This document shows, one piece after another, positions 15,912 to 32,327 of a DNA stretch of 64,000 nt. A program made the translations under genes and the position numbers. Origin of the DNA: Pseudomonadota bacterium (lineage in GTDB: Bacteria > Pseudomonadota > Gammaproteobacteria > Steroidobacterales > Steroidobacteraceae); NCBI GenBank assembly GCA_026398735.1, contig JAPLSH010000008.1:1-64000 (forward strand), read 5' to 3'. The notes beneath the pieces were generated by a model. The model was not told the DNA's origin. It saw only the letters and a program-made list of their open reading frames with translations, and searched no databases. Position 1 is the stretch's first letter; the number at the start of each line of letters is the position of its first letter.

Positions 15912-16313
15912 CTAGCGCACTTCGGACAGCAACTCCGGGTGCCGATCCAGCACCTTCAGCAGTTTGACCAGCGCCAACGGTGGCTTGGCCTTGCCGTTTT
16001 CGTAACGCGAGAACGCATTGACACCACCCCCGAAGATTTCCGCGGCCTCGCGCTGATCAAGATCGAGCTTCTTGCGAACGCTCGCGATGAACTGCGGGTC
16101 AACCAATGAGGCATTGACCAGCTTGTTGAAGGCCTGGATACCGTCCATCACGCGACGGGACTGGTCAGCGTCCAACACGGCCTCGTCACAGGCCGGACAA
16201 AAATCGCCCGTGACATTCACAATGACTGTCGATTGACCCTTATAAACATGGGTCAAATCGCGAGTTTCATGCAGCAACTTTGCAGCTGCGCAATTCGGAC
16301 ATTTCATGTTCAC
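15912..16313 (-). CDS. mqsA: MqsA-type antitoxin (CXXC zinc domain + HTH)
   Basis: MKCPNCAAAKL...GDFCPACDEAVL plus HTH DLDQREAAEIFGGGVNAFSRYENGKAKPPLALVKLLKVLDRHPELL. Confidence 0.92.
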   Translation of the reverse strand: MNMKCPNCAAAKLLHETRDLTHVYKGQSTVIVNVTGDFCPACDEAVLDADQSRRVMDGIQAFNKLVNASLVDPQFIASVRKKLDLDQREAAEIFGGGVNAFSRYENGKAKPPLALVKLLKVLDRHPELLSEVR

Positions 16314-16606
16314 AGCTCCTTGAACGACACGATCAACACGTCGTCGACCACGGTCAGCTTCAAATAGATCTGGCCTCGCGACGTATAGGGCCTATAGACG
16401 TCCTGCCATATCCGGTGGTCACCATGCGATGTCATGCTCTTGTAGAAGTCCGATGGTGTCAGTGACTTCACAACCTCCACCATGCCATCGAAATCCAAGC
16501 CGATGGCCAATGCGCCATCACGCGCGCTTCGGGTCGTGCGCACCCGCCCCGCAATTGCCAAAGCGTGCACAGCCGAGAGCTTGCAATGAGGCGCGTATTT
16601 CTCCAT
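16310..16606 (-). CDS. mqsR: MqsR-type mRNA interferase toxin
   Basis: MEKYAPHCKLSAVHALA...MVEVVKSLTPSDFYKSMTSHGDHRIWQDVYRPYT...IYLKLTVVDDVLIVSFKEL; toxin-first order. Confidence 0.93.
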   Translation of the reverse strand: MEKYAPHCKLSAVHALAIAGRVRTTRSARDGALAIGLDFDGMVEVVKSLTPSDFYKSMTSHGDHRIWQDVYRPYTSRGQIYLKLTVVDDVLIVSFKEL

Positions 16607-18275: not shown

Positions 18276-18974
18276 TCAGACGGATAAGCCCACAACCCGG
18301 CTCACACAACTGCGGTGGATCTGCCGCAGTTGCTCCGCATACAGCCCTTGCAGCGTAGGCAACTGATGGTGCCCCACCCCTGCGGGGATCGGCACCAACT
18401 GCGGCACCGTCAGCGTGACGCAGCCTGCCGCATGGGCAGAACGCGCGCCGGTGGGTGAGTCCTCTATAGCAAGACAGTGCTGCGGCGCTACGCCCAAGCG
18501 CGATGCCGCAGTCAGATACGCCTCTGGATGTGGCTTGCCTTGGCTCACATCGTCGCCGGCCACCACGGTGGCAAACGAGCCAGCAGGCAACGCAGGCAGC
18601 AGCGCATCAACAAATCGCCGCCAAGACATCGTGACCAGCGCGCAGGGAATACCCGCTGCGCCAAGGTCTGCGAGCAACTCCCGCGCGCCCGGTCGCCAAG
18701 GCACACGCTGACGCACACGTTCAATCACGCCATCGAGCAACAGATGAACAATATCGTCGATGGGCAGTTGCAGCTCGCCATGCAGTGCCATGTAGCGTGC
18801 CGAGTCGCGCAGATCACGACCCACCAACGCATGACCATGCGCTTGCGTCCACGCGCCATTGCCATGCTCGGCCACAATCTCGAATTCGCGTGCGATCCAA
18901 TAGTCTTCGGTGTCGACCAACGTGCCGTCCATGTCCCACAGCACTGCGGCGAGCGGCGAATGCAGATCGGTCAC
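18276..18974 (-). CDS. HAD family hydrolase (phosphoglycolate phosphatase/beta-PGM-like)
   Basis: VLWDMDGTLVDTEDYW, LVTMSWRR, GKPHPEAYLTAASRLGVAPQHCLAIEDSPTGARSAHAAG. Confidence 0.9.
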   Translation of the reverse strand: MTDLHSPLAAVLWDMDGTLVDTEDYWIAREFEIVAEHGNGAWTQAHGHALVGRDLRDSARYMALHGELQLPIDDIVHLLLDGVIERVRQRVPWRPGARELLADLGAAGIPCALVTMSWRRFVDALLPALPAGSFATVVAGDDVSQGKPHPEAYLTAASRLGVAPQHCLAIEDSPTGARSAHAAGCVTLTVPQLVPIPAGVGHHQLPTLQGLYAEQLRQIHRSCVSRVVGLSV

Positions 18975-19990
18975 TGCTGACGCTGGGCCGCTTGTGCAGC
19001 CTGAGCGGCCTTGCGCAGGCGATCCTCGCGCGCGGCGATGCGCTCGCGGATGCGCGGCACTGCGGCCAATGCCGCCTTCTCGCCTTCAAGGATGGCCAAG
19101 TGCCGACTGTCAAAGCTGGCACTTGCCAGTTCTGCCGTTGCCGGCGACACAACGACGTCTGCGCTCTGCAACTCTTGCGCGGCGATCGTGCGGCCCATGA
19201 TCAGGAAGGTTTGCAGCAGCACATCGATGGTGCCCTGCACTTTGGCGCGCAGCGGCTCTTGCGAAATATCGACTGCAATCACGATGTCGGCGCCCATGTC
19301 GCGTGCGGCTTTCACCGGCACTGGGCTGGTGAGCCCACCATCCACAAATTCGCGACCATCAATGATGACCGGTTGAAACACGCCCGGCACGCTGCTGGAA
19401 GCACGCACCGCCATGCCAGTGTTACCGCGCCTGAACACTACCGACTCGCCTGAATGCAGGTCGGTGGCCACCACGCCCAGCGGCTTGGCCAGCTTGTCGA
19501 TGGCCCGACCTTTTACTGCATCGTTGATGTACTTCTGTAGCGACTCGCCCTTGATGAAGCCGCGATTGGGCAACGCCCAATCACTGACAGACTTCTCGTC
19601 CAGATCCAGCGCGCGACGCTGCAGATCAAAGCCCGTGATGCCAGCCGCATACAGCGCGCCCACCACACTGCCTGCACTGGTGCCGACAATCATGTCGGGC
19701 GCCAAGCCTTGTGATTCGAGCATCTTGATCACGCCCACATGCGCAAAGCCACGCGCTGCGCCACCGCCGAGTACCAGTGCGATTTTGGGCGGCGGGATGA
19801 CGATGGGACGCGGAGGTGGCGGTGGTGGTGGCAGCAACGAAGGCGGCACACTGACCGGCGCAACCACCGGCGCAGTGACCGGCACCGGTTGCTGCCCAAT
19901 GGGCGCTTCGGGCTTACGCGGTGCGCTGCCGCAGGCGGCAAGCGTCAGGCTGATGACAAGTAGAAGGGTCGCGCGCGCACAAGCCGCCAT
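18971..19990 (-). CDS. Patatin-like phospholipase, lipoprotein
   Basis: Lipobox LAAC; GGGAARGFAHVG, GTSAGSVVGALYAAG, DGGLTSPVPV; poly-Pro linker. Confidence 0.9.
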   Translation of the reverse strand: MAACARATLLLVISLTLAACGSAPRKPEAPIGQQPVPVTAPVVAPVSVPPSLLPPPPPPPRPIVIPPPKIALVLGGGAARGFAHVGVIKMLESQGLAPDMIVGTSAGSVVGALYAAGITGFDLQRRALDLDEKSVSDWALPNRGFIKGESLQKYINDAVKGRAIDKLAKPLGVVATDLHSGESVVFRRGNTGMAVRASSSVPGVFQPVIIDGREFVDGGLTSPVPVKAARDMGADIVIAVDISQEPLRAKVQGTIDVLLQTFLIMGRTIAAQELQSADVVVSPATAELASASFDSRHLAILEGEKAALAAVPRIRERIAAREDRLRKAAQAAQAAQRQQ

Positions 19991-20006
19991 CGACTGGCGG
20001 TTTGAT

Positions 20007-20798
20007 CTACGGGAATACGGGTTCGCCGTTAGATCCCACGTTGCGGTTGTTCTCGGCACAAACAAATTCCTGCAGCCTCAGTTCGGGCCGATGGCGGTAT
20101 CGGCGCACATGTGTCCAAGGCGTTTCAAACACCTTGGGATCGGTGACAGTGATCTCGGCAACAAGAATGCCGGGCTCTTTGAGGTAGATGCGCTCGGTGA
20201 TCCGCTGGGCATCACTGACAGGGAGACCCGATTGATCGATGAGCACGTCGTCACGCACGCCCACTGTATCAACAACCAGCGTGTCCCCTTCCCAATGTCC
20301 TACCGAATGCCCTGCAAAGGTGGCCAGCAACTCGTCTTCGGGCGGATGCTTCGTGCCATCGGTCCAAATACGTCTGGAGGCGGCCTGCCACTCTGACGTG
20401 ATGGTCACCTGTCCGGCAGTCTGCAGCAGCTCCATGCCGTAGATGGCCCCCATCATCCGGGGCATCCCCGGGGGCATGCATAGACCCGTCGGGTCATATC
20501 GCACGATGCCCGCCGCTGCGTCCTTGAGTCCGGTCTCGTACTTTTCCTTGTAAGGGGATTTAAGGGGCGAATGCGGACTGCGCGGAATCTGTGCGCCCTG
20601 GGCACCAGTCGTTTTGGCAACCTCTGCACCGGGACCGAAGTTGCGGTCCAGCAGCCCGCCGACGGGCGACCAGAATCCGGTCATGTTTGGTTTGCCGTCC
20701 GGCAGGCGCGCCGGCTTCGGACCCGGCGACACATCTGCACCAGCAGCAAGCACCGGCACTGCCAGCAGCATAAGCCCAAGCGTCAGCAGCGCACGCAT
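20007..20798 (-). CDS. Exported protein of unknown function, module partner (copy 3)
   Basis: Signal peptide; LCMPPGMPR..., FAGHSVGHWEGDTLVVDTVG, LQEFVCAENNRN; homologous to 21194-22087 and 22423-23169. Confidence 0.85.
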   Translation of the reverse strand: MRALLTLGLMLLAVPVLAAGADVSPGPKPARLPDGKPNMTGFWSPVGGLLDRNFGPGAEVAKTTGAQGAQIPRSPHSPLKSPYKEKYETGLKDAAAGIVRYDPTGLCMPPGMPRMMGAIYGMELLQTAGQVTITSEWQAASRRIWTDGTKHPPEDELLATFAGHSVGHWEGDTLVVDTVGVRDDVLIDQSGLPVSDAQRITERIYLKEPGILVAEITVTDPKVFETPWTHVRRYRHRPELRLQEFVCAENNRNVGSNGEPVFP

Positions 20799-21172
20799 CA
20801 GGCGCCACCGCCGAGTTTGGTGCCGTCAGGCAAAGTGACCAGCAGCAGATTGCCGCCCGCATTACCGTCGCGCAGTGGGTTGATCAGCAGCTTGATGCGA
20901 TCACCAGGTTTGAGCGTGTTCTTTTTCCAACCCGCGCGTCCCAGCACGTTAGGACTTAAGGCCTCGATCGACCACTCTTTCGGTGCTCCACCATCTGCCG
21001 GCGTGACCATCACCTGGATCCAGGAGTGCGGATTGGTGAACTGAAACTCCTTCACCACACCCTCGATCTCTACCTGCGCATTACGGTCGAACATCGCAAA
21101 GGAGTGGTGTGCAAAGGCGGGCCACGCGAGCAGCACACCAGACAACAGAGCAGCCAATGTGTGCTTGCGCAT
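20798..21172 (-). CDS. DUF6152-like small exported protein (copy 3)
   Basis: AWPAFA|HHSFAMFDRNAQVEIEGVVKEFQFTNPHSWIQVMV. Confidence 0.85.
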   Translation of the reverse strand: MRKHTLAALLSGVLLAWPAFAHHSFAMFDRNAQVEIEGVVKEFQFTNPHSWIQVMVTPADGGAPKEWSIEALSPNVLGRAGWKKNTLKPGDRIKLLINPLRDGNAGGNLLLVTLPDGTKLGGGA

Positions 21173-21193
21173 AAGGTTTATCCGGCTCCGGTG

Positions 21194-22087
21194 CTACTTG
21201 CTGGAAGGCGTGGCGATCGGACGCAGGATGCCCTTTTCGTCCGACGCGTAGTGGTTGTCTTCCTGCAGGCAAACAAACTCCTGCAATTCAGCATCAGACT
21301 TTTTGTATTGCTTGGCCGTGACCCAAGGCTTGGTCAGGATGCTGGGGTCGTGCATCGTCAACTCGTCAACAAAGCCATCTTTGGTCAGCGAGAACCGCTC
21401 GACAATACGCAACTGCTCGGTATGCGGAACACCCGGCTGGATATCCGGTGCGGTGTTCATGCCCACGGTGTCCACGACCAGCGTGTTGCCCTCCCACCAG
21501 CCAATGGAATGACCATAGTAGGTAGGAATCAGATCGTCACCCTGCGGGTGATCGCGGCCATCGAGCCAGATCCAACGAACAGCGTTGTAATACTCGTGGA
21601 TGATCGTGATCAGCTTTGGCGTATGGATGATCTGGATCGGGTACACGCGCGTCAGGATCAACGGAAAGCCCGGCGGCGCGCAGGTGCCTGTCTTGTCACG
21701 CGCGTTAAAGCCCTCTGCGCGCAGGCGCAGCACTTCGTCCAGTACAGCCTGAGCCTCGGGCTTCAGCGGCGGGTCGGGCTTAAAGCCTGCAGCACCTTCC
21801 GGCTGCGTCACCCACCACACACCGTTCAGGTCAAAGGCCTGCTTATCCGACTTGCGGTTGGACTTAACAACACCAGGAGTCTTTTGCTGGGCAGCGGGCG
21901 GCGCGATGACGCCAGTGGTGGCGTTCTGTGCAGCAGCTGAAGTCAGCTGCAGGCAACAGGCAATGGCAGCTACCGAGGCAGCAAGGGTCGTGCGACGCAA
22001 AGTAATCATGACAACCTCAACGCTCAGTCCAGACGGAACCATCAGCCTTGGTGACCGAGACAACCCGGCCACTGGATGAACCATCAC
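21194..22087 (-). CDS. Exported protein of unknown function, module partner (copy 2)
   Basis: TCAPPGFPLILTRVYPIQIIH, YYGHSIGWWEGNTLVVDTVGMN, LTKPWVTAKQYKKSDAELQEFVC; N-terminal start uncertain (internal MITLRRTTLAASVAAIACCLQL fits better). Confidence 0.8.
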   Translation of the reverse strand: MMVHPVAGLSRSPRLMVPSGLSVEVVMITLRRTTLAASVAAIACCLQLTSAAAQNATTGVIAPPAAQQKTPGVVKSNRKSDKQAFDLNGVWWVTQPEGAAGFKPDPPLKPEAQAVLDEVLRLRAEGFNARDKTGTCAPPGFPLILTRVYPIQIIHTPKLITIIHEYYNAVRWIWLDGRDHPQGDDLIPTYYGHSIGWWEGNTLVVDTVGMNTAPDIQPGVPHTEQLRIVERFSLTKDGFVDELTMHDPSILTKPWVTAKQYKKSDAELQEFVCLQEDNHYASDEKGILRPIATPSSK

Positions 22088-22397
22088 GCATAGGATTGGT
22101 GACGACCGTTACCTTGTCGCCCACTTGGAAAGTAGTGGGACGCCAGCCGCGCCGAAGCAGCAGGTTCGGGCTGGTCAGCTCTACGCCGTATTCCACTTCC
22201 GCGCCCTCTGCATTCTTGACGGACAAGAAAAGCCAGCCATGCGGATTGGTCCACTGGTATTTCTTGACGGTAGCCTCGTATGTCTCCGTCTTGCGGAAAT
22301 CAAACATAGAGGCAGAGTGGTGGGCGATGGCGGTCTGGGCACAGGCCAGGAGCAACACGCCCGAGGCCAGCCAGCCAGTGACAGTGGTTTTGTTCAT
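22017..22397 (-). CDS. DUF6152-like small exported protein (copy 2)
   Basis: AQTAIA|HHSASMFDFRKTETYEATVKKYQWTNPHGWLFLSVK. Confidence 0.85.
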   Translation of the reverse strand: MNKTTVTGWLASGVLLLACAQTAIAHHSASMFDFRKTETYEATVKKYQWTNPHGWLFLSVKNAEGAEVEYGVELTSPNLLLRRGWRPTTFQVGDKVTVVTNPMRDGSSSGRVVSVTKADGSVWTER

Positions 22398-22422
22398 GGG
22401 TTTTTACTCAAGAATGCTGATG

Positions 22423-23169
22423 CTAGGGCACTCCTGTGAAACCGGTCGTACCGTCGGCGTTCACAGGGTTGCGGTTGTTCTCGGCACACACGTATTCAAG
22501 CAAGCGCTCGCCGGGCTTGCGGGTATAGGTGCGAACCACAGTCCAAGGTTTGGTCAAGGCCTTGGCGTCGTTCAGGGTGATGCTGATTTCCAACTTATCC
22601 GGACCCGTAAGACGCATCCGCTCGGTCACTTTCAGTACGTCGCTATGCGGAAAATGAGTCGTGTCGAGCACAGACTTCGGGTTCATATCGATGGTATCGA
22701 TGACCAGCGTGTCGCCTTCCCACTTGCCGGTCGAATGCCCGTTGAACGTGGGCGCACCCAGCGGAGCCGGACCTGAACCATCCAAGCCGATGAGCCGCAT
22801 CTGACTCATGTACTCGTACAGGATGTAGACGGTCTTTGCGGTGACGACCACTTCGAAAGGAAACGGCGACGCAAGAATGCGCGGCACGCCAGGAGGCATG
22901 CACTGCGTCGTCGGATCTGCCTTGGGCTTACCGCGGGCGGCAGCATCAAGCGACTGCTGGTAACGCGCCACGTACTCTGGTGTGAACGGGGCCTTGGTCT
23001 TCTCGCCGGCCTTAACCGACGTGTCCCATAGCACCCCTTGATCACCAGACCAGATACCGTTGAACGCTGCTTTGTCGACCTCTGCAGCGACGCTGAGACT
23101 GCTCGCAGCGGTCAGAGCCAGCAATGCCATGGTGCAAGTCAAAATCGTACTGGCGCGCATAGCACTCAT
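22423..23169 (-). CDS. Exported protein of unknown function, module partner (copy 1)
   Basis: QCMPPGVPRILASPFPFEVV, FNGHSTGKWEGDTLVIDTIDMN, LTKPWTVVRTYTRKPGERLLEYVCAENNRN. Confidence 0.85.
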   Translation of the reverse strand: MSAMRASTILTCTMALLALTAASSLSVAAEVDKAAFNGIWSGDQGVLWDTSVKAGEKTKAPFTPEYVARYQQSLDAAARGKPKADPTTQCMPPGVPRILASPFPFEVVVTAKTVYILYEYMSQMRLIGLDGSGPAPLGAPTFNGHSTGKWEGDTLVIDTIDMNPKSVLDTTHFPHSDVLKVTERMRLTGPDKLEISITLNDAKALTKPWTVVRTYTRKPGERLLEYVCAENNRNPVNADGTTGFTGVP

Positions 23170-23576
23170 CCCGGCACTGTGGAGTTGAGGTTGCCCAGCG
23201 TCCGGCCATCCGGGAAACGGGCATGTACGAAGTTCGCGCCCCGGCCACCATCGCGCAACGGATTGACGGTCAGACTGACCTTATCACCGGGTTTGAAGCT
23301 TTCCCGGGTCCAGCCTTGGCGCATCAGCATGTTGGGACTGGCGCCTTCGATGCTCCACTCCTCCTCAACACCCTTGTCGTTGCGGACCATGACCTGCACA
23401 AAGATATGCGGATTGGTCCACTGAAACTCCCGCACCACGCCTTCCAGCATGATGCGAGTGCTGCGGTCAAAGACCGCAAACGAATGATGCGCTCGTGCCG
23501 GCAGTGCAGACCCTGCGAGCACTACGCCCGCAAGTTGCAGCACAGACCTGCGTGTGTGCTTTCCGTCAGAAGCCAA
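23166..23576 (-). CDS. DUF6152-like small exported protein (copy 1), Tat-like signal
   Basis: TRRSVLQLAGVVLAGSALPARA|HHSFAVFDRSTRIMLEGVVREFQWTNPHIFVQVMVR; probable TTG start at 23576 overlapping the receptor stop; the ORF stays open to 23690. Confidence 0.78.
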   Translation of the reverse strand: MASDGKHTRRSVLQLAGVVLAGSALPARAHHSFAVFDRSTRIMLEGVVREFQWTNPHIFVQVMVRNDKGVEEEWSIEGASPNMLMRQGWTRESFKPGDKVSLTVNPLRDGGRGANFVHARFPDGRTLGNLNSTVPG

Positions 23577-26500
23577 ACCGCACCCCCAGCTTGTAGGTGC
23601 GACCGATGAGGTCATACAGACTCGCATTGGTCGGGTTGTTGCCGGCGAACGGCGGCGGATCACGATCGAGCAGGTTGTTGACGACACCAAAGAGTTGCAA
23701 CGTGCCGCCCGCGCTCTCGATCAGATCGTACTGGCCAGACAGATTGACGTAGCTGACCGGCTTGCGCACGTTGATGTTGATGCTGTTGCTCAACGTGGGG
23801 CTATAGGCCGGATCGTCAGGTCCGATCAATTCGACATCCTGCTTGGTCTCACCCACATAGCGCAGCTGCGCAGTGGCAGACAAGCGATTGACGCGGTAGG
23901 TCAGGCTGCCATTGGCAGACCACTTGGGAACAGTCTGATAGATGCGGTTGATCGCGCCATTCGGATCGGTTGTTGTCAACTCGTTGACGAAGGTACCAAA
24001 GCCGCGCATCTGCAAGCGACCCGGCAGACCCACGCGACCCATGTCGAAGTTGTAAGACAACTCCAGGTCAACACCACTGGTCTCCAGAGAGTTGAAGTTG
24101 ACCTGACGGTTGTTGATCGACGTAATCGTCTTGCCCGTCCCGAAGACGATGTTGCTGCACAGACTGGCAACACCCGCATAGCAACGATCAACGGTCAGCT
24201 GTGAGCTGAACTGGGAGATGACGTTCTGCAGGTCGATGCGGTAGTAGTCCACCGACGCGCGAAGACCCTCCAGCCATTCCGGCTGGTAGAGCACGCCGGC
24301 GGTTAACGTATCGGCATTCTCTGGCGTCAGCGCATCATTGCCACTGGTGAACTGGTCGATCTGCAGACCGCCTTGGCCAGTCCAAGGGTTCGTGACGCTA
24401 ACGCGAGAAGACACTGCGACGGAGTACAACTCGCTGATGTTCGGCGCGCGAATGTCGCGGGACTGCGTAGCACGCAACTTCAGTTGCGAGTTCGGCTCGT
24501 AGCCCAAGCCGATCTTCCAAGTCGTCACCGGACCACTGGTGCTGTAGTCGGTATGACGCGCTGCGGTGTTGAGCTCTAGCTTACGTACCAGCGGCTTGTC
24601 GACCAGCAGCGGCAGCACCGCCTCGACATACGCCTCGCGCGTCGAATACTCGCCATTGAGTGGCTTGTAGTTGCCCAGATCGAATCGGCTCAGCTCCGAG
24701 TCCTTGTCAACGACTGACACCGACTTCTCGCTGCGGTATTCCAAACCCGCAGCCAGCGACAGGTCGCCGGCCCACAACGTGACCGGCGAACCGGTGATGT
24801 TGGCGGCAGCCACGCTCGTGGTCGTGGTCTGGTCGTTGACGCCAGCACGACGCACGTAATCTACGGCGGCCTGTGAGGGCGAATTGCGTCCGAAGATGTT
24901 GAAGGGTACGCAGCCGGGATCGGCAGTCGTGACAGTGCCACGACAGACAATTGCACCGCTGGCATTCACGACGGCATCGGTGGCCGCTGTGTAGTTGGAG
25001 TTGATGGTGCCCTGATCGCGCTGCCAGATCTTGTTCTGGCCCCGCTGATAATTGGCGTTCCATGACCAGCCACGTGCCAACTCACCCTTAAGGCCAAAGA
25101 CCACGCGCTCCATCGTCTGGTCTGAGTTGCGGGTGTAGAAGCCGTAGTTGTCATCGAACGCAATACGGCCGACCGTGATCGACGTCAGCTTGTTCGTCAC
25201 CATCTGTTGGCGAACTGCTGCCGGCAAGTAGGCATTGTCGACCTTGATCGACAGCGACGCATCGTCGCGACGGCTGGCAGATAGGCCGCGGAACCGCGTG
25301 CCGCCAGTGGAGGCTTCTACGAAGCTCTCGATATAGTCGTTGAAACGGAAATTGGCTCGCGTGAGCAAGGCATAGCGTTCGATCGGATTGACCAGATTCG
25401 AGCCACCGGTGAAATAGATGCCGGGGTTGCTGGCAGCGCCGCCACCCACCATCTGGTTGCCGCCGACAACAGAGCCCGGCACAAACACAGTGGTCTGACC
25501 ATTAGTCAGGAACTCGATGTTATCGAGCGGACCACCGACGATGATGCCGCCGGGCGCCATGCGGTCCGAGATGCGCACATCTTGCGCAACGATGCGCGAC
25601 GCCAGACCGGCGGTGCGGGTCGTGCCCAGACTGACAGTACCCCAGGCCTCACGACCCCAATCACGCGTGACATAGCCGTCTGGCACGCCCTCGTTATCGA
25701 CGTACTCGGCACCGAAAACGATATGGCCACGACCATCGGCGAACGGCGTACCGGCTGCCAGCGACACGGCAACTTCGTTGAAGTCGGACTGAGCGGACTG
25801 ACCGCGCGTCACGCTGCCCTCAACCCCGTTGAGGCGATCCTTCAGGATGAGGTTGACCACACCGGCTACGGCATCAGAGCCCCAGGCTGCAGAGGCGCCA
25901 CCGGTCACCACTTCAGTGCGCTCGATGAGGCTGGAGGGAATCAGATTGAGATCGACCTGACCCTTGGCGTTGGAGGAGGTAAAGCGGCGGCCATCAACCA
26001 GTACCAAGGTACGTGGCGTGGCAGTCGGTCCCTGACCGTTCAGGCCGCGAAGATCGAGAAAGCTGCCACCGTTGGTGCTGCCGCCGCGCGCTGCGGCAGC
26101 AGGCGTCTGGCTGGCGCGAAACGCCGGGATCTCGTTGAGCACTTCGGTGATGTTGCTGGCAGCACGACTGCGAATCTCTTCGCTACCAATGATTGTGGTG
26201 GGCGTAGGTGCCGTGAAGCCATCGCGAGCAACGCGCGAACCGGTCACGACGATTTCTTCGGCCACATCGGCAGAGGCTGCAGGGGCTGCGGGGGCTGCTG
26301 CTGCTGCAGGTTCTGCAGAGCGCTGGGCCACTTTCAGAAAGCCGGGTGTTGTCTTGGGGGCAGTCTGGACCGGCGGCAATCCTGCTCGGCGGCGGATCAT
26401 CCAAGTGCCGGTAGGGGAGCGTTCGGCGACCAGCACCGTGCCCTCAAACAGTTGCCGCAGGTCGGCGCCATCGGTCAGTTCGCCGCGCAGTGAGGCTATC

Positions 26501-26685
26501 GTGAGGCCCTCGACCACATCTTCGGTGAACATGATCTGCTGGCCATTGCGCTGGCTGAAGTTGCGCAGCGCCTGCGACAGCGACTGCTGGGGCGCGGTCA
26601 CTTTGGCAGACAAGTCGGCGGCCATCGAGCCGGACGCCAACGCAAGACCTAAGACCGCAGACACGGCCAACCTGACTGTGAGCAT
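23566..26685 (-). CDS. TonB-dependent receptor with N-terminal STN (signalling) domain
   Basis: STN-like APQQSLSQALRNFSQRNGQQIMFTEDVVEGL; TonB box/plug EEIVVTGSRVARDGFTAPTPTTIIGSEEIRSRAASNITEVLNEIPAF; C-terminal YKLGVRFGF. Start chosen at the ATG preceded by GGGGG. Confidence 0.93.
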   Translation of the reverse strand: MLTVRLAVSAVLGLALASGSMAADLSAKVTAPQQSLSQALRNFSQRNGQQIMFTEDVVEGLTIASLRGELTDGADLRQLFEGTVLVAERSPTGTWMIRRRAGLPPVQTAPKTTPGFLKVAQRSAEPAAAAAPAAPAASADVAEEIVVTGSRVARDGFTAPTPTTIIGSEEIRSRAASNITEVLNEIPAFRASQTPAAAARGGSTNGGSFLDLRGLNGQGPTATPRTLVLVDGRRFTSSNAKGQVDLNLIPSSLIERTEVVTGGASAAWGSDAVAGVVNLILKDRLNGVEGSVTRGQSAQSDFNEVAVSLAAGTPFADGRGHIVFGAEYVDNEGVPDGYVTRDWGREAWGTVSLGTTRTAGLASRIVAQDVRISDRMAPGGIIVGGPLDNIEFLTNGQTTVFVPGSVVGGNQMVGGGAASNPGIYFTGGSNLVNPIERYALLTRANFRFNDYIESFVEASTGGTRFRGLSASRRDDASLSIKVDNAYLPAAVRQQMVTNKLTSITVGRIAFDDNYGFYTRNSDQTMERVVFGLKGELARGWSWNANYQRGQNKIWQRDQGTINSNYTAATDAVVNASGAIVCRGTVTTADPGCVPFNIFGRNSPSQAAVDYVRRAGVNDQTTTTSVAAANITGSPVTLWAGDLSLAAGLEYRSEKSVSVVDKDSELSRFDLGNYKPLNGEYSTREAYVEAVLPLLVDKPLVRKLELNTAARHTDYSTSGPVTTWKIGLGYEPNSQLKLRATQSRDIRAPNISELYSVAVSSRVSVTNPWTGQGGLQIDQFTSGNDALTPENADTLTAGVLYQPEWLEGLRASVDYYRIDLQNVISQFSSQLTVDRCYAGVASLCSNIVFGTGKTITSINNRQVNFNSLETSGVDLELSYNFDMGRVGLPGRLQMRGFGTFVNELTTTDPNGAINRIYQTVPKWSANGSLTYRVNRLSATAQLRYVGETKQDVELIGPDDPAYSPTLSNSININVRKPVSYVNLSGQYDLIESAGGTLQLFGVVNNLLDRDPPPFAGNNPTNASLYDLIGRTYKLGVRFGF

Positions 26686-26786
26686 GATTCCCCCGGTAAT
26701 GTTCAATGTCCCATTTGCGCTATACGCAGGACTTAGCTAGGAAGACGACACGAATTAAGAAATCCTCCACCAGCCTGCAATAGAAT

Positions 26787-27800
26787 TCAATTGGCAGGTA
26801 GCGGACGGATTTCGATACCTCCACGGCTCGTAATGGTGGCGGCCAGCGGCAGATAGGCGGTTACCGTGGCGACGAAGCCATCCAAGTCCTGGATCAGGAA
26901 GACGCCACTGATTCGCTGCTCGGCGACGCCCTCGCCCACCAGCTGTAACTGCCTAGAGCTGTAGCGATTAAACCGGGCTGCGACGACCCCCAGCGTCTCG
27001 CCCTCGAACACCAGCCGACCGTTTTCCCAAGCCGTTGCATGACTGACGTCGGTTACACGCAGCACCGGCTGTGCATCTTCGCTAAGCAGCAACTGCTGGC
27101 CCGGCTCCATATCAATGCTCTGCGCGGACTTGACCTCATCCCGGCGCACCCGCACGCGCCCCTCGATGAGCGTCACAGCCAGCGTGTTACCCAGCAGGTC
27201 CATGTTGAACGCAGTGCCGACAGCACGAACCAATTGACCCCCCGCATGCACCACAAAAGGACGCGAAGGATCTTTGCTGACGTTGAACCGGGCCTGTCCG
27301 TCGACCAACTGCACGTCCCGCTCGGAGCGGCTATAGCGAACGCGTACCTTGGTACGAGAGTCGAGCACCAACTGCGAGCCGTCACTAAGCGTGACCGTGC
27401 GCCGCTCTCCGGCCTGCGTGGTGTAGGTGTCTGAGTGCTTGAAAATCGCGTAATAAGACGAGCCGCCCGCAATCACTAGGACCACCGTTGCGGCCAACGC
27501 CTGTAGCGACCTGTACCAAGGTCTGGCGCTATGCGCCTTGGCTCTAGTCTGGCGTGCCTCGCGTGCATGGCCCAGCGCCTCTTCGCGCAGCGCCAACACT
27601 TCGGGCTGCGCGGCGTGCTCACCCAGCAATTGCCACGATGCATGGACCTGCTGCCAAGCGTGCTTGTTGGCAGGATGCGCGGCCAGCCATGCCTCAAAAT
27701 CGGCGCCGGATGCATCGCCCTGGGCAAGCCGCATCTGCCAGGTAGCCGCTTCAACCAGCCTGGTATCGATCACGGTCGCGTTTATGGACGACTTAGTCAT
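26787..27800 (-). CDS. FecR family anti-sigma/regulatory protein
   Basis: N-terminal ATWQMRLAQGDASGADFEAWLAAHPANKHAWQQV; TQAGERRTVTLSDGSQLVLDSRTKVRVRYS FecR core. Confidence 0.93.
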   Translation of the reverse strand: MTKSSINATVIDTRLVEAATWQMRLAQGDASGADFEAWLAAHPANKHAWQQVHASWQLLGEHAAQPEVLALREEALGHAREARQTRAKAHSARPWYRSLQALAATVVLVIAGGSSYYAIFKHSDTYTTQAGERRTVTLSDGSQLVLDSRTKVRVRYSRSERDVQLVDGQARFNVSKDPSRPFVVHAGGQLVRAVGTAFNMDLLGNTLAVTLIEGRVRVRRDEVKSAQSIDMEPGQQLLLSEDAQPVLRVTDVSHATAWENGRLVFEGETLGVVAARFNRYSSRQLQLVGEGVAEQRISGVFLIQDLDGFVATVTAYLPLAATITSRGGIEIRPLPAN

Positions 27801-27808
27801 GCGGGGTG

Positions 27809-28339
27809 CTAACGCTCAACACGGGTGGTCAGATGCAGCATGGCTTTCATCACATGCTTTTCAACGGTGCTCTGCCCAATTCCGTATAACGCGGCGATGT
27901 CCTTCTGCTTCATGTTTTCTAGGCGGAACAAGATGAAGATGTTGCGGGTCAGGACGCCCAGCTCTGCGAGTGCAGCAAGCACATCAGAAAGCGCGTCCCT
28001 GCCTAGCAAGACGCGCTCCGGCGTAATTTCCTCCACCAGATGCCCATCAGCCTGCAGGGCTTCGGCCTCTTCGATGGACAAATACCCCTGAACACCCTGA
28101 CGGACCGCTTGACGATGTCGGTCACGCAACAGGTTGCGAGCAGTGGTGAAGATGTAGGCTTCTGCGTCGCGGATGTCGGGGCTGGCTGAGGCGCGCAGCA
28201 CCTTTAGCAGCACTTCTTGCACCAGGTCTTCCACTTCTGCCTGGTTGCGAATGCGTCTGGAGAAATAGCTCTTGAGCGGCCCGCGAAAACGAGCGCTTAA
28301 GTCCAGCGCAAGAGTTGCGTGCTGCGGATCAGCTTTCAT
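27809..28339 (-). CDS. ECF-type RNA polymerase sigma factor
   Basis: QAEVEDLVQEVLLKVLRA (region 2); LAELGVLTRNIFILFRLENMKQKDIAALYGIGQSTVEKHVMKAM (region 4). Confidence 0.93.
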   Translation of the reverse strand: MKADPQHATLALDLSARFRGPLKSYFSRRIRNQAEVEDLVQEVLLKVLRASASPDIRDAEAYIFTTARNLLRDRHRQAVRQGVQGYLSIEEAEALQADGHLVEEITPERVLLGRDALSDVLAALAELGVLTRNIFILFRLENMKQKDIAALYGIGQSTVEKHVMKAMLHLTTRVER

Positions 28340-29157: not shown

Positions 29158-29409
29158 ATGAGCACCATGAATATCTCCCTGCCCGACACGCTCAAGGCCT
29201 TCGTTGATGAGCAGGTCAGTCAAGGCAGCTACGGCACCAGCAGCGAATACGTGCGAGAGCTGATTCGCAGAGATCGCGATCGCCTGCAGCTGCGCGGGCT
29301 GCTGATGGCGGGCGCGGCGTCTGCACCGGCAGCCCCGGCCGATGCAGGCTATTTCGCGTCGCTGCGTGATCGGGTGCGCAAGTCCGCCAAGGCGGGCGCG
29401 GGCGAGTGA
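29158..29409 (+). CDS. parD: ParD-family antitoxin
   Basis: MNISLPDTLKAFVDEQVSQGSYGTSSEYVRELIRRDRDR. Confidence 0.92.
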   Translation: MSTMNISLPDTLKAFVDEQVSQGSYGTSSEYVRELIRRDRDRLQLRGLLMAGAASAPAAPADAGYFASLRDRVRKSAKAGAGE

Positions 29410-29729
29410 CGGCGAAGCCTGTCGTTCCGCGTGAGCTAGCCCATCGAGACATTGATGACGCAATTGCCCATTACCTGCGCGAAGGCGCTGAACAGGCGGC
29501 ACTGGCATTCATTGACGTGCTGCAGCAGGCCCATGCGCACATCAGTCGCCATCCGGCCAGCGGGTCGCCGCGCTACGCCCACGCATTGAATCTGCCGGGT
29601 CTGCGTGTCTGGCCGCTATCGCACTATCCGCACTTGGTGTTCTACGTCGAGCATCCAGGCCACATTGATGTGTGGCGCGTGCTGCACGGCCAACGCGACA
29701 TACCGGCGTGGATGCAGGAGTCCAAGTAA
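29406..29729 (+). CDS. parE: ParE-family toxin
   Basis: RELAHRDIDDAIAHYLREGAEQAALAFIDVLQQAHAHISRHPASGSPRY...; overlaps parD. Confidence 0.9.
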   Translation: MTAKPVVPRELAHRDIDDAIAHYLREGAEQAALAFIDVLQQAHAHISRHPASGSPRYAHALNLPGLRVWPLSHYPHLVFYVEHPGHIDVWRVLHGQRDIPAWMQESK

Positions 29730-29803
29730 CCCACTGGGATTTCAGCGAAATTGCAATACAATGTATCTCAAAGTATCTCCATTTATCGCGATCTGAGGCA
29801 GTC

Positions 29804-30085
29804 ATGGCAGCCACCACCACAATGATCCACGTCCGCGTTGATGAGAACGTTAAGGCAATGGCCACCGAAACACTGGCATCGATGGGCCTTACGGTCTCAG
29901 ATGCAATCCGCGTATTCCTGACGCGCGTGGTGGCCGATAACGAACTGCCGTTCGCGCTCAAGGCACCCAACGCCGCTAGCCGTACTGCGATCGCAGAGGC
30001 CAACAAGATCATCAAGACCCGTCGCCCCCGCTTCGCTACTGCAGACGCCCTGCTGCATGACCTCGAAAAAGCCAGCGGCAAATAA
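29804..30085 (+). CDS. dinJ: RelB/DinJ-family antitoxin
   Basis: MIHVRVDENVKAMATETLASMGLTVSDAIRVFLTRVVADNELPFALKAPN. Confidence 0.9.
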   Translation: MAATTTMIHVRVDENVKAMATETLASMGLTVSDAIRVFLTRVVADNELPFALKAPNAASRTAIAEANKIIKTRRPRFATADALLHDLEKASGK

Positions 30086-30385
30086 GCGGGCAAACCTGCC
30101 GCGCGCGTCGGACTACACCAAGAGTTTCCTCAAAGACTGGCAGCGCCTGCCCCATTCCGGCCGGTATGACCTGAACCTGCTCAAGCAAGCCATGGCGCTG
30201 CTGGTCGCCAACGACGGTCCGCTGCCCCAGAGTGGCTTGACCATCCGCTGTCAGGAGACTGGGCCGGCCATCGGGAGTGCCATATAGGCGGCGACTTTCT
30301 GCTGATCTACACGCTGGATGACTCTGCCAAGCGCGGCATGGTGGTGTTTGTTCGCAGCGGAACGCACTCAGAGCTGTTCTCGTAA
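30057..30385 (+). pseudogene. yafQ: YafQ-type toxin, frameshifted at a CCCC run
   Basis: YTKSFLKDWQRLPHSGRYDLNLLKQAMALLVANDGPLP continues one frame over as PEWLDHPLSGDWAGHRECHIGGDFLLIYTLDDSAKRGMVVFVRSGTHSELFS*. Confidence 0.88.
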
Positions 30386-30508
30386 CAACGCCTGCCCTAT
30401 GGGTACCAGACGCTGATCAATCAGGCCTTACGACGTATTGCCGGTGTCGTCACTGTCGACGAAGCCATGTTGCGGCGTGTGATCAGAGAAGAATTGAAGG
30501 CTGGTTGA
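30386..30508 (+). pseudogene. C-terminal fragment of an RHH/BrnA-like antitoxin
   Basis: QRLPYGYQTLINQALRRIAGVVTVDEAMLRRVIREELKAG*, in frame after the yafQ stop, with no start codon or N-terminal half. Confidence 0.5.
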
Positions 30509-30511
30509 GGC

Positions 30512-30802
30512 TCACACTGCCAACGCAGAAAGCACAGCCTTTGGGTCGTTGCGGATGGCGCGCAGCAGCGCCTTTGCCGGACCCGTGGGCTCACGACGCC
30601 CCTGCTCCCAGTTGCGCAGCGTGCCCAGGTCCACGCTCAGCAGTGCCGCAAACTTCGCCTGACTCAGTTCAAGGCTGGCACGCAGCGCCTTGATGGACGT
30701 GGCATCGACCTGAAACTTGCGTGATGGCGCGCGAATGCCGCGCAGAATCTCATCCGCCTGCATCACGCTCTGAAGAAGCTTTATGGAGTTTCTGGTCGTC
30801 AT
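30512..30802 (-). CDS. NadS/HigA2-like HTH antitoxin
   Basis: SIKALRASLELSQAKFAALLSVDLGTLRNWEQGRREPTGPAKALLRAI. Confidence 0.85.
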   Translation of the reverse strand: MTTRNSIKLLQSVMQADEILRGIRAPSRKFQVDATSIKALRASLELSQAKFAALLSVDLGTLRNWEQGRREPTGPAKALLRAIRNDPKAVLSALAV

Positions 30803-30896
30803 GCCCACTTATCTACGATCTTTTCAAGATGGCCTTATCGCAATCCAAATGGCTTTTGACGTCGCCGGTGAAGAGCGACGTTTCGACGAAGATCAA
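30799..30896 (-). pseudogene. HigB2/RelE-like toxin with internal deletion (N- and C-terminal ends only)
   Basis: N-terminal LIFVETSLFTGDVKSHLD and, in another frame, C-terminal HLEKIVDKWA* whose stop overlaps the antitoxin start (ATGA). Confidence 0.65.
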
Positions 30897-30914
30897 GGCG
30901 CCACCGTACGCCGC

Positions 30915-30930
30915 TGACTTATATAAGTCA
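30915..30930. promoter_or_regulatory. 16-bp perfect palindrome, candidate TA operator
   Basis: TGACTTATATAAGTCA upstream of the deleted toxin/antitoxin pair. Confidence 0.65.
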
Positions 30931-31213
30931 ATGGCGTAGTCGTGACGGCAACCCCTGTCTTGGGTTCGTTGCTTGTCTGTCGCTGGTGGGATTTCACACC
31001 CCACTCTGCTGCACCGGCTCAGCGGCTAACAGCTACATTTCTGCTGGGTTTAGATCGATACAGCCAACGCCCAGTCGTCTTGCGGCCTCGGTAACACTGA
31101 TCAGACCGAAGACCCTCATCAAGGACCCTTGGATGAAGAAGCTGCTTGGCCATCTGAGCGGCCGTTTACAGGCGGCGGTACATGTCAGCCAGGCACAATG
31201 GCTCACTCCGGCG

Positions 31214-31345
31214 TCATGCGACTCGCTTCGCATCCACGGTCTGTGCCTTGAGCACGACCTTGAGGCACTTGCTGGGCGTGAGCGTTGCCGCTTAGTCGAG
31301 CAGCACCATGGTGTGTGCTTCTTTCGCCCGTTGTACTCAACGTCT
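31214..31345 (-). pseudogene. Internally deleted copy of the antidote gene at 31965-32327
   Basis: Direct alignment: gcatccac.gtctgtgccttgagcacgaccttgaggcacttgctgg / gcgtgagcgttgcc / gcttagtcgagcagc / accatggtgtgtgcttctttcgcccgttgtactcaacgt match separated blocks of 32010-32360. Confidence 0.85.
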
Positions 31346-31404
31346 TGATCCAGAAAAACCCCACGTTTGTGGGGAAGACGCACTTGGGGCTAGCCGCAGG
31401 CGAC

Positions 31405-31710
31405 TTACCCGCGTCGACCAATGAGCTCTTTATCGAGCAATCGCTCGCCTCGAACAACATGCACGATATGGACCGTGCTCTGTTCGTGCCGATAAATGAT
31501 GCGACAGGGCGGCTCAATGATCTGGCGATAACGCCACCCTCGAAACTCAGGAAGCTTCGGTCCGCTCAAGGGATGGGCTGCCAATTGCTCGACGTGATCA
31601 AACACCCGTCTCACCAGTTCACTGGCAGCCTTCGGATTTTCCAACGCAATGTAGTCAGCGATAGCGTCCAGATCAGCGAGCGCGGGCTCCGTCCAGATCA
31701 CTTCAGCCAT
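31405..31710 (-). CDS. RelE/ParE-family toxin
   Basis: MAEVIWTEPALADLDAIADYIALENPKAASELVRRVFDHVEQLAAHPLSGPKLPEFRGWRYRQI... Confidence 0.9.
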   Translation of the reverse strand: MAEVIWTEPALADLDAIADYIALENPKAASELVRRVFDHVEQLAAHPLSGPKLPEFRGWRYRQIIEPPCRIIYRHEQSTVHIVHVVRGERLLDKELIGRRG

Positions 31711-31955
31711 CGAGCCATCCGCTTTTTCGCATCGACTTGGGAGACAGTCCGGCCTTCTTCGATGGCCTTTTCGCCGCGAGCAATGCCTTCAAGCAGCGTC
31801 ATCCGACGCTGTAACAACTCATAAGTCGCAACGTCCACAAGATAAGCGCTGGGAAGCCCATGCTGAGTGATCAGAATGGGCTCGCGGCTACGCTCCAGCT
31901 CATCCAGAAGTTCGGTAGCTTTACGCTTCAGGGTCGTAACGAGTTCAGTGCGCAT
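31698..31955 (-). CDS. YefM/Phd-like antitoxin
   Basis: MRTELVTTLKRKATELLDELERSREPILITQHGLPSAYLVDVATYELLQRR; overlaps the toxin start. Confidence 0.87.
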   Translation of the reverse strand: MRTELVTTLKRKATELLDELERSREPILITQHGLPSAYLVDVATYELLQRRMTLLEGIARGEKAIEEGRTVSQVDAKKRMARWLK

Positions 31956-31958
31956 GAA

Positions 31959-31976
31959 GTGATACTAAAGTATCAC
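31959..31976. promoter_or_regulatory. 18-bp inverted repeat, candidate operator of the YefM/ParE-like pair
   Basis: GTGATACT-AA-AGTATCAC 4 bp upstream of the 31955 start; contains the stop codon of the upstream antidote gene. Confidence 0.65.
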
Positions 31977-32327
31977 TCTTGCCGAGGCAAGGCGGCGGCC
32001 GACCCGTTTCGCATCCACCGCCTGTGCCTTGAGCCCGACCTTGAGGCACTTGCTGGTCGCCTCAAAAATAGCGGCAAGGTTATCCATGCTCGGATTGCCT
32101 TTGGGCGACAGCATGCGGTGAAGGCTTTTGCTGGGCGTGAGCGTTGCCTTCGAGAGCCCCTCAAAGCCCAACGTGGCGTTCACCAGATCACGCAGGATCA
32201 AGCGCGCCGTTTCTGGCTCACCGTTCAGAAACAACGTTGCCGCTTCGTCCAGCAGCGTATTGGCAAACGCCGGGTCACGCTCGACTCTGGCAATAACGGT
32301 GTTTTTGAAGTCGCGAGTCAGCGCCAT
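31965..32327 (-). CDS. HigA-like addiction-module antidote protein
   Basis: MALTRDFKNTVIARVERDPAFANTLLDEAATLFLNGEPETARLILRDLVNATLGFEGLSKATLTPSKSLHRMLSPKGNPSMDNLAAIFEA. Confidence 0.85.
   Translation of the reverse strand: MALTRDFKNTVIARVERDPAFANTLLDEAATLFLNGEPETARLILRDLVNATLGFEGLSKATLTPSKSLHRMLSPKGNPSMDNLAAIFEATSKCLKVGLKAQAVDAKRVGRRLASARVIL

Follow-up and report, generated by a model that had tools for sequence, protein, structure and literature searches.

We analysed a 64,000-nucleotide stretch of a Steroidobacteraceae genome (contig JAPLSH010000008.1, positions 1 to 64,000; hereafter the window). On its minus strand, from position 28339 down to 20007, lie genes for an extracytoplasmic function (ECF) sigma factor, a FecR protein, a TonB-dependent receptor bearing an STN domain, and three gene pairs numbered D1-Q1, D2-Q2 and D3-Q3, in that order. 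D is a DUF6152 protein (PF19649) and Q is its partner protein. The remarkable part of this operon is the D/Q unit, and the finding is real and recurrent: with high confidence, D and Q are one evolutionary unit, and with equally high confidence the unit is associated with TonB receptors. For the function of the operon we propose, at a little less than an even chance, that it is a TonB uptake operon in which Q is a periplasmic ligand carrier and D is a metal protein with an N-terminal histidine that acts with Q, the ligand probably being hydrophobic or aromatic.

Results

D and Q occur, lie and evolve together

Among 120 genomes of the family, 38 contained both D and Q and 75 contained neither, with D only in four (weak matches) and Q only in three; presence of the two thus agrees in 113 of the 120 genomes (p=4e-23). 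Q lies on the same strand within 400 bp for 95 of the 139 unfused D genes (92 loci), in both gene orders, and 61 of these 95 pairs overlap or sit at most 4 bp apart. Nine D-Q fusion genes, among them L011:13451-14587, were found across the 92 loci; several of the nine are orthologues of one another and hence not independent. D is N-terminal in 9/9 fusions, unlike the two gene orders outside them, which stand at about 50:45, as would be expected if a free D N-terminus matters. In 17 D/Q pairs of the window genome, a comparison within one genome in which species history is constant, the tree distances of D and Q correlate with r=0.70 (shuffles 0.00±0.19), a value reached by 0/5000 shuffles.

The pair also recurs beside TonB receptors in other genomes, a recurrence on which the original prediction of a receptor-linked exported module had depended. 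TonB receptor genes make up 8.2% of the genes one or two steps from D/Q (36/438) and 1.3% of those further out (10/766; p=5e-9). Among cultured strains in RefSeq, Croceibacterium atlanticum has the order D-D-Q-TonB receptor, and Novosphingobium humi has two adjacent DUF6644 genes near Q-D beside a beta-oxidation-like operon. Q is annotated as "hypothetical protein" in both.

The 2.77 Mb genome of the window holds 22 DUF6152 copies, which is far beyond chance given that any copy was present in 4/185 sampled genomes of the class, the window genome included. High copy numbers of D/Q were also seen in Bryobacteraceae (47/118), Candidatus Sulfopaludibacter (69/118), a group 5 acidobacterium (94/at least 150) and SAR86 (25/42). 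Three acidobacterial genomes (G313, G304 and G312; loci L062, L081 and L106) have 47-94 DUF6152 and 118 to at least 150 Q.

D carries a conserved, predicted N-terminal His-His and a candidate metal site

D1 (23166..23576), D2 (22017..22397) and D3 (20798..21172) match PF19649 with E-values of 1e-34, 4e-31 and 7e-35, respectively, and score 107-120 bits against a gathering score of 27. The signal peptide of D1 ends in PARA before HHSFAVFD, and the mature proteins would start with HHSASMFD in D2 and HHSFAMFD in D3. In all 22 D copies of the window genome, which were found by profile and are the less biased set, HH directly follows an AxA-type motif (one copy has xxV instead of AxA). The motif also directly precedes HH in nearly all of 148 D sequences, a sample fetched in part with a pattern containing HHS. 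Judged from this motif, cleavage would leave mature D with His as residue 1. A twin-arginine translocation (Tat) route was rejected as a rule for D, a crude twin-arginine pattern being found in 4/148; the signal peptide of D1 does contain RR.

Conservation extends beyond the N-terminus. H1 and H2 are present in 148/148 sequences, the histidine of an NPH motif (His28) in 147/148 and Glu49 in 146/148, and a divergent member (L024) keeps AHHG and NPH. Besides HH, the NPH histidine and Glu49, with Asp8 at 140/148, are the sole near-invariant potential metal ligands of D. The AlphaFold2 model of D3 (predicted local distance difference test score, pLDDT, 94.9) shows the oligonucleotide/oligosaccharide-binding (OB) topology b1-b2-b3-a-b4-b5, and Foldseek matched it to OB proteins, among them the OB domains of SSB and LysRS (E about 2e-3); an OB fold is thus predicted for D. 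Going by strand numbering alone, His28 opens strand 2 and Glu49 lies close to where strand 3 ends, which would place the two next to each other on one face. We have moderate confidence that D has a metal site, for which the His/His/His/Glu set is the candidate. Neither D nor Q showed homology to a solved structure in searches of PDB sequences. The literature searches returned no papers on DUF6152 or DUF6644, and no published function of DUF6152 came to light.

Exported proteins with an N-terminal histidine found by signal-strapping bind Ni or Cu; DUF4198, DUF6702 and anglerases do so, and DUF4198 genes lie near TonB receptors (PMC12537917). The main text of that paper does not mention DUF6152. 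D is likewise exported, with a predicted mature N-terminal His and an internal conserved His, and shares TonB-receptor neighbours with DUF4198. However, D is predicted to be an OB fold, whereas the solved DUF4198 structure is a beta-sandwich, an architecture that DUF6702 and anglerases are said to share (PMC12537917). The N-terminal His is found in 148/148 D sequences, compared with 79% of DUF4198 and 65% of DUF6702 as reported there, and D, unlike these three families, has a dedicated co-evolving partner. The likeness of D to histidine-brace metalloproteins lies in two sequence features only, the N-terminal His and the internal His, and D is not classed as one of them.

Q is predicted to be a calycin-like barrel

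Q1 (22423..23169), Q2 (21194..22009) and Q3 (20007..20798) were identified by iterated profile search. None of the three matched a Pfam or NCBIfam family; among 80 diverse Q members 0/80 matched any Pfam family, and NCBIfam gave one marginal, irrelevant match. The sequences agree with the original prediction that the D/Q pairs are exported. In the Q3 model (pLDDT 88.5), nine strands form an antiparallel barrel, with helices inserted between the first strand and the second; among the Foldseek PDB matches listed, 50/50 are FABP, CRBP, CRABP or related calycins. Near-invariant in Q are a GxW on strand A, Cys107, Cys247, Gly163, Arg142, Glu202, Arg203 and Asp220, and Cys107 and Cys247 possibly form a disulphide. 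The FABP/CRBP calycins likewise form an antiparallel barrel in which helices lie between strands A and B, although the fold similarity of the Q model to them is weak; the GxW on the first strand is a feature of lipocalins too. In contrast to FABP/CRBP, Q is exported, has a domain of about 210 residues and two near-invariant cysteines, and shows no detectable sequence relation to them. We infer from the calycin-like barrel that its natural reading would be a ligand carrier.

The receptor and the D/Q pairs as the probable core of the operon

The original prediction described an ECF-FecR-STN cascade driving three tandem copies of an exported two-gene module. Every gene that it named was found on the minus strand in its place. 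The receptor has its ATG at 26685, a TTG at 23576 is the most likely start of D1, and the start of Q2 was moved from 22087 to an ATG at 22009. The cascade is complete at the sequence level. The FecI-like ECF sigma factor (27809..28339) has both sigma regions 2 and 4 (Sigma70_r2 2e-12, Sigma70_r4_2 2e-10; TIGR02937 4e-21), the adjoining FecR anti-sigma/transducer (26787..27800) matches PF04773 at 8e-22 and DUF4880 at 8e-8, and the receptor (23566..26685) matches Plug at 4e-21 and TonB_dep_Rec_b-barrel at 1e-31. Residues 22-103 of the receptor (26377..26622) match by phmmer the solved STN domains of HasR (2m5j, 1.7e-4) and PupA (2a02, 8e-3) and, weakly, those of PupB and FecA; the Pfam STN model itself gives no match on the receptor.

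The evidence did not support treating the cascade as integral to the system. A profile search across the window's genome, with its 22 D copies, found a single FecR match, and no close FecR was found in any other genome of the genus. A detectable STN domain is present on 4/46 receptors found in D/Q loci. In a same-genus genome (G276, loci L045/L123) the orthologous receptor, 61% identical to that of the window, begins at the plug and lacks STN, and the surrounding 16 kb gave no detected homologue of FecR or sigma. Because FecR is unique in the genome, STN is rare and the regulators were undetected around the G276 orthologue, the receptor and D/Q are best read as the core and the sigma cascade as an ordinary local add-on. 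Sigma/FecR genes are rare beside D/Q but recur there in two Caulobacteraceae loci (L071 and L077). The ECF sigma factor, FecR and STN-bearing TonB receptor stand in the canonical order of FecI-FecR-FecA cell-surface signalling. The window operon differs in that it continues into D/Q pairs, whereas the FecI-FecR-FecA type continues into an ABC (ATP-binding cassette) iron importer, and in that its same-genus relative is without regulators.

The three tandem copies proved correct as a layout but not as a history. The window pairs are about 32-50% identical to one another, while downstream of the G276 receptor lie, in order, counterparts 60% identical to D2, 76% to Q2, 69% to D3 and 67% to Q3. Since these genes are closer to their positional counterparts in the same genus than to each other, recent tandem duplication was rejected; by sequence, the three pairs are divergent paralogues and not fresh duplicates.

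The D1 start overlaps the receptor stop, the Q1 start overlaps the D1 stop (ATGA), the Q3 start overlaps the D3 stop, and the other adjacent genes between the receptor and Q3 are separated by 7 to 25 bp. Because of these overlaps and short gaps, the genes from the receptor to Q3 look like one transcription unit. The 101-bp gap between FecR and the receptor (26686..26786) is the widest in the gene series, and a probable position for a sigma-dependent promoter. A scan for promoters and terminators, using the sigma-70 consensus only, gave results at or below shuffle level and was uninformative.

Neighbouring genes

Representatives of the recurrent D/Q neighbours include an RPE65-type oxygenase, a LigAB ring-cleavage dioxygenase, a pyrroloquinoline quinone (PQQ)/cytochrome c dehydrogenase, a metallo-beta-lactamase-fold protein, major facilitator superfamily (MFS)-like proteins and DUF6644 proteins. 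Pairs of DUF6644 membrane-protein genes stand beside Q/D in L016, L047, L063, L066, L084, L087, L094 and L129, and DUF6644 is likely to be an inner-membrane partner of the D/Q system. A resemblance of DUF6644 to CopD was judged by eye only and is not claimed. A mixed neighbour cluster, fam2, adjoins D/Q in L009, L011, L066, L084, L087, L090 and L104. It comprises a separate esterase-like protein and exported SnoaL/NTF2-like-looking proteins that start with CD..C, some of which also carry fused esterase-like domains; the fam2 representative tested had no Pfam match. Loci in which neither strand carries a Q within 400 bp of D include L061, L056, L078 and L111, where D may act alone.

Directly downstream of Q3 in the window, on the same strand, is a patatin-like, RssA-related gene for a lipoprotein-looking product (18971-20065) that is perhaps co-transcribed. 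Toxin-antitoxin genes flank the operon at 29158-32327 (upstream: ParD/ParE, RelB, a helix-turn-helix protein, and ParE with Phd/YefM) and at 15912-16606 (downstream: MqsR/MqsA). Imperfect direct repeats lie nearby at 31210/31991 and 31301/32319, and the region is possibly a mobile island.

Discussion

The original prediction took the exported pair to be an effector or processing arm, a reasonable guess that can now be worded more specifically. We propose that a specific compound, probably a hydrophobic or an aromatic one, would cross the outer membrane by way of the receptor, and that Q would hold the imported compound in its calycin-like barrel in the periplasm. D, an OB fold with a metal site made of the free N-terminal His-His, the NPH histidine and the glutamate, would work on the same complex as Q, either delivering metal or assisting redox chemistry or hand-off. 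With three divergent D/Q pairs, a single receptor may be able to handle several ligands or a succession of steps, and in the window genome the ECF-FecR-STN cascade would place the unit under ligand-induced control. The receptor enrichment, the LigAB, RPE65-type and PQQ/cytochrome c dehydrogenase neighbours and the beta-oxidation-like operon of Novosphingobium humi count in favour of this proposal. The transcription of the operon, metal binding, the ligand class and the division of labour between D and Q are all parts that we infer, and our confidence in the identity of the ligand and the chemistry of the operon is low. The broader claim is that D is a new (OB) fold class of N-terminal-His metal protein and that D and calycin-like Q together make up a periplasmic machine, widespread but undescribed, that deals with compounds imported through TonB receptors; amplification would have given some Acidobacteria, SAR86, Caulobacteraceae and their relatives tens to more than 100 paralogues in each genome. 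We hold this tentatively, as somewhat less probable than its opposite.

We know of no D/Q or sigma cascade from the DdvT system of Sphingobium SYK-6. DdvT is a TonB receptor for a lignin-derived aromatic compound (PMC6874591), and it has in common with the window operon a TonB receptor and an aromatic-catabolism context; the comparison is one of context only and not of receptor homology.

Several observations weigh against the uptake proposal. The similarity of Q to calycins is weak (E 1e-3 to 1e-4, best 3.6e-4), with Foldseek template modelling (TM) scores of 0.43-0.62 on targets and an aligned root-mean-square deviation of mostly 5-9 Å. Most D/Q loci have no recognisable receptor, and the catabolic neighbours are diverse and annotated from few representatives. 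Away from contig ends, 18 D genes lack a Q within 400 bp, whichever strand is considered. Q exceeds D in several genomes (77 vs 17, 46 vs 6), and Q therefore also acts without D. The correlation of the D and Q trees could also arise from block duplication without physical contact.

An operon for metal acquisition is an unlikely alternative. The receptor would take in copper or nickel, either as the metal or in a metallophore, D would catch the metal in the periplasm through its N-terminal-His site, Q would bind the metallophore or a partner, and DUF6644, whose gene pairs directly adjoin D/Q in a number of loci, would supply the inner-membrane step. The Ni or Cu binding of N-terminal-His DUF4198, DUF6702 and anglerases and the location of DUF4198 near TonB receptors (PMC12537917) point this way, as does the classical service of ECF-FecR-TonB cascades to iron carriers (PMC9249621). 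However, a single metal hardly accounts for ten to ninety paralogues in a genome, and most of the D/Q neighbours are enzymes of carbon catabolism. A P-type ATPase in Croceibacterium, at a distance of about 8 kb, was the sole metal regulator or transporter seen. Those same catabolic neighbours, with LigAB, RPE65, PQQ dehydrogenase and Mo-hydroxylase-like genes, would suit a periplasmic redox enzyme, with D as a small histidine-brace copper enzyme, an oxygenase or oxidase, and Q as the subunit that presents its substrate, the pair modifying incoming aromatics. The invariant His/His/His/Glu set of D and the free D N-terminus in the D-Q fusions are consistent with such an enzyme, but no redox partner is strictly linked to D/Q, and to our knowledge there is no OB-fold oxygenase of the histidine-brace type. 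The characterised N-terminal-His analogues DUF4198 and DUF6702 moreover resembled binding or transport proteins, not enzymes (PMC12537917), and we consider the enzyme quite improbable.

We think it very improbable that D and Q are proteins of general envelope or stress function whose association with receptors only reflects the presence of many such loci in TonB-rich bacteria. Q often occurs without a receptor and its paralogues are very numerous, as such proteins might be, but the receptor enrichment comes from a comparison with more distant genes of those very loci, and different species keep the order receptor-D2-Q2-D3-Q3.

The window operon is a good test case for the uptake proposal because it is the only FecR-regulated system of its genome, and its inducer should reveal the ligand. 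TonB-rich bacteria of soil, lakes and the sea carry tens to more than 100 Q per genome, although Q has no family name and D goes by a DUF number alone. Should D/Q prove to be the periplasmic arm of specific uptake systems, a large set of "hypothetical" environmental proteins would become interpretable, and the substrates of receptors may be predictable from the D/Q subtype. If the proposal for D is true, the N-terminal-histidine metalloproteins would gain a further fold.

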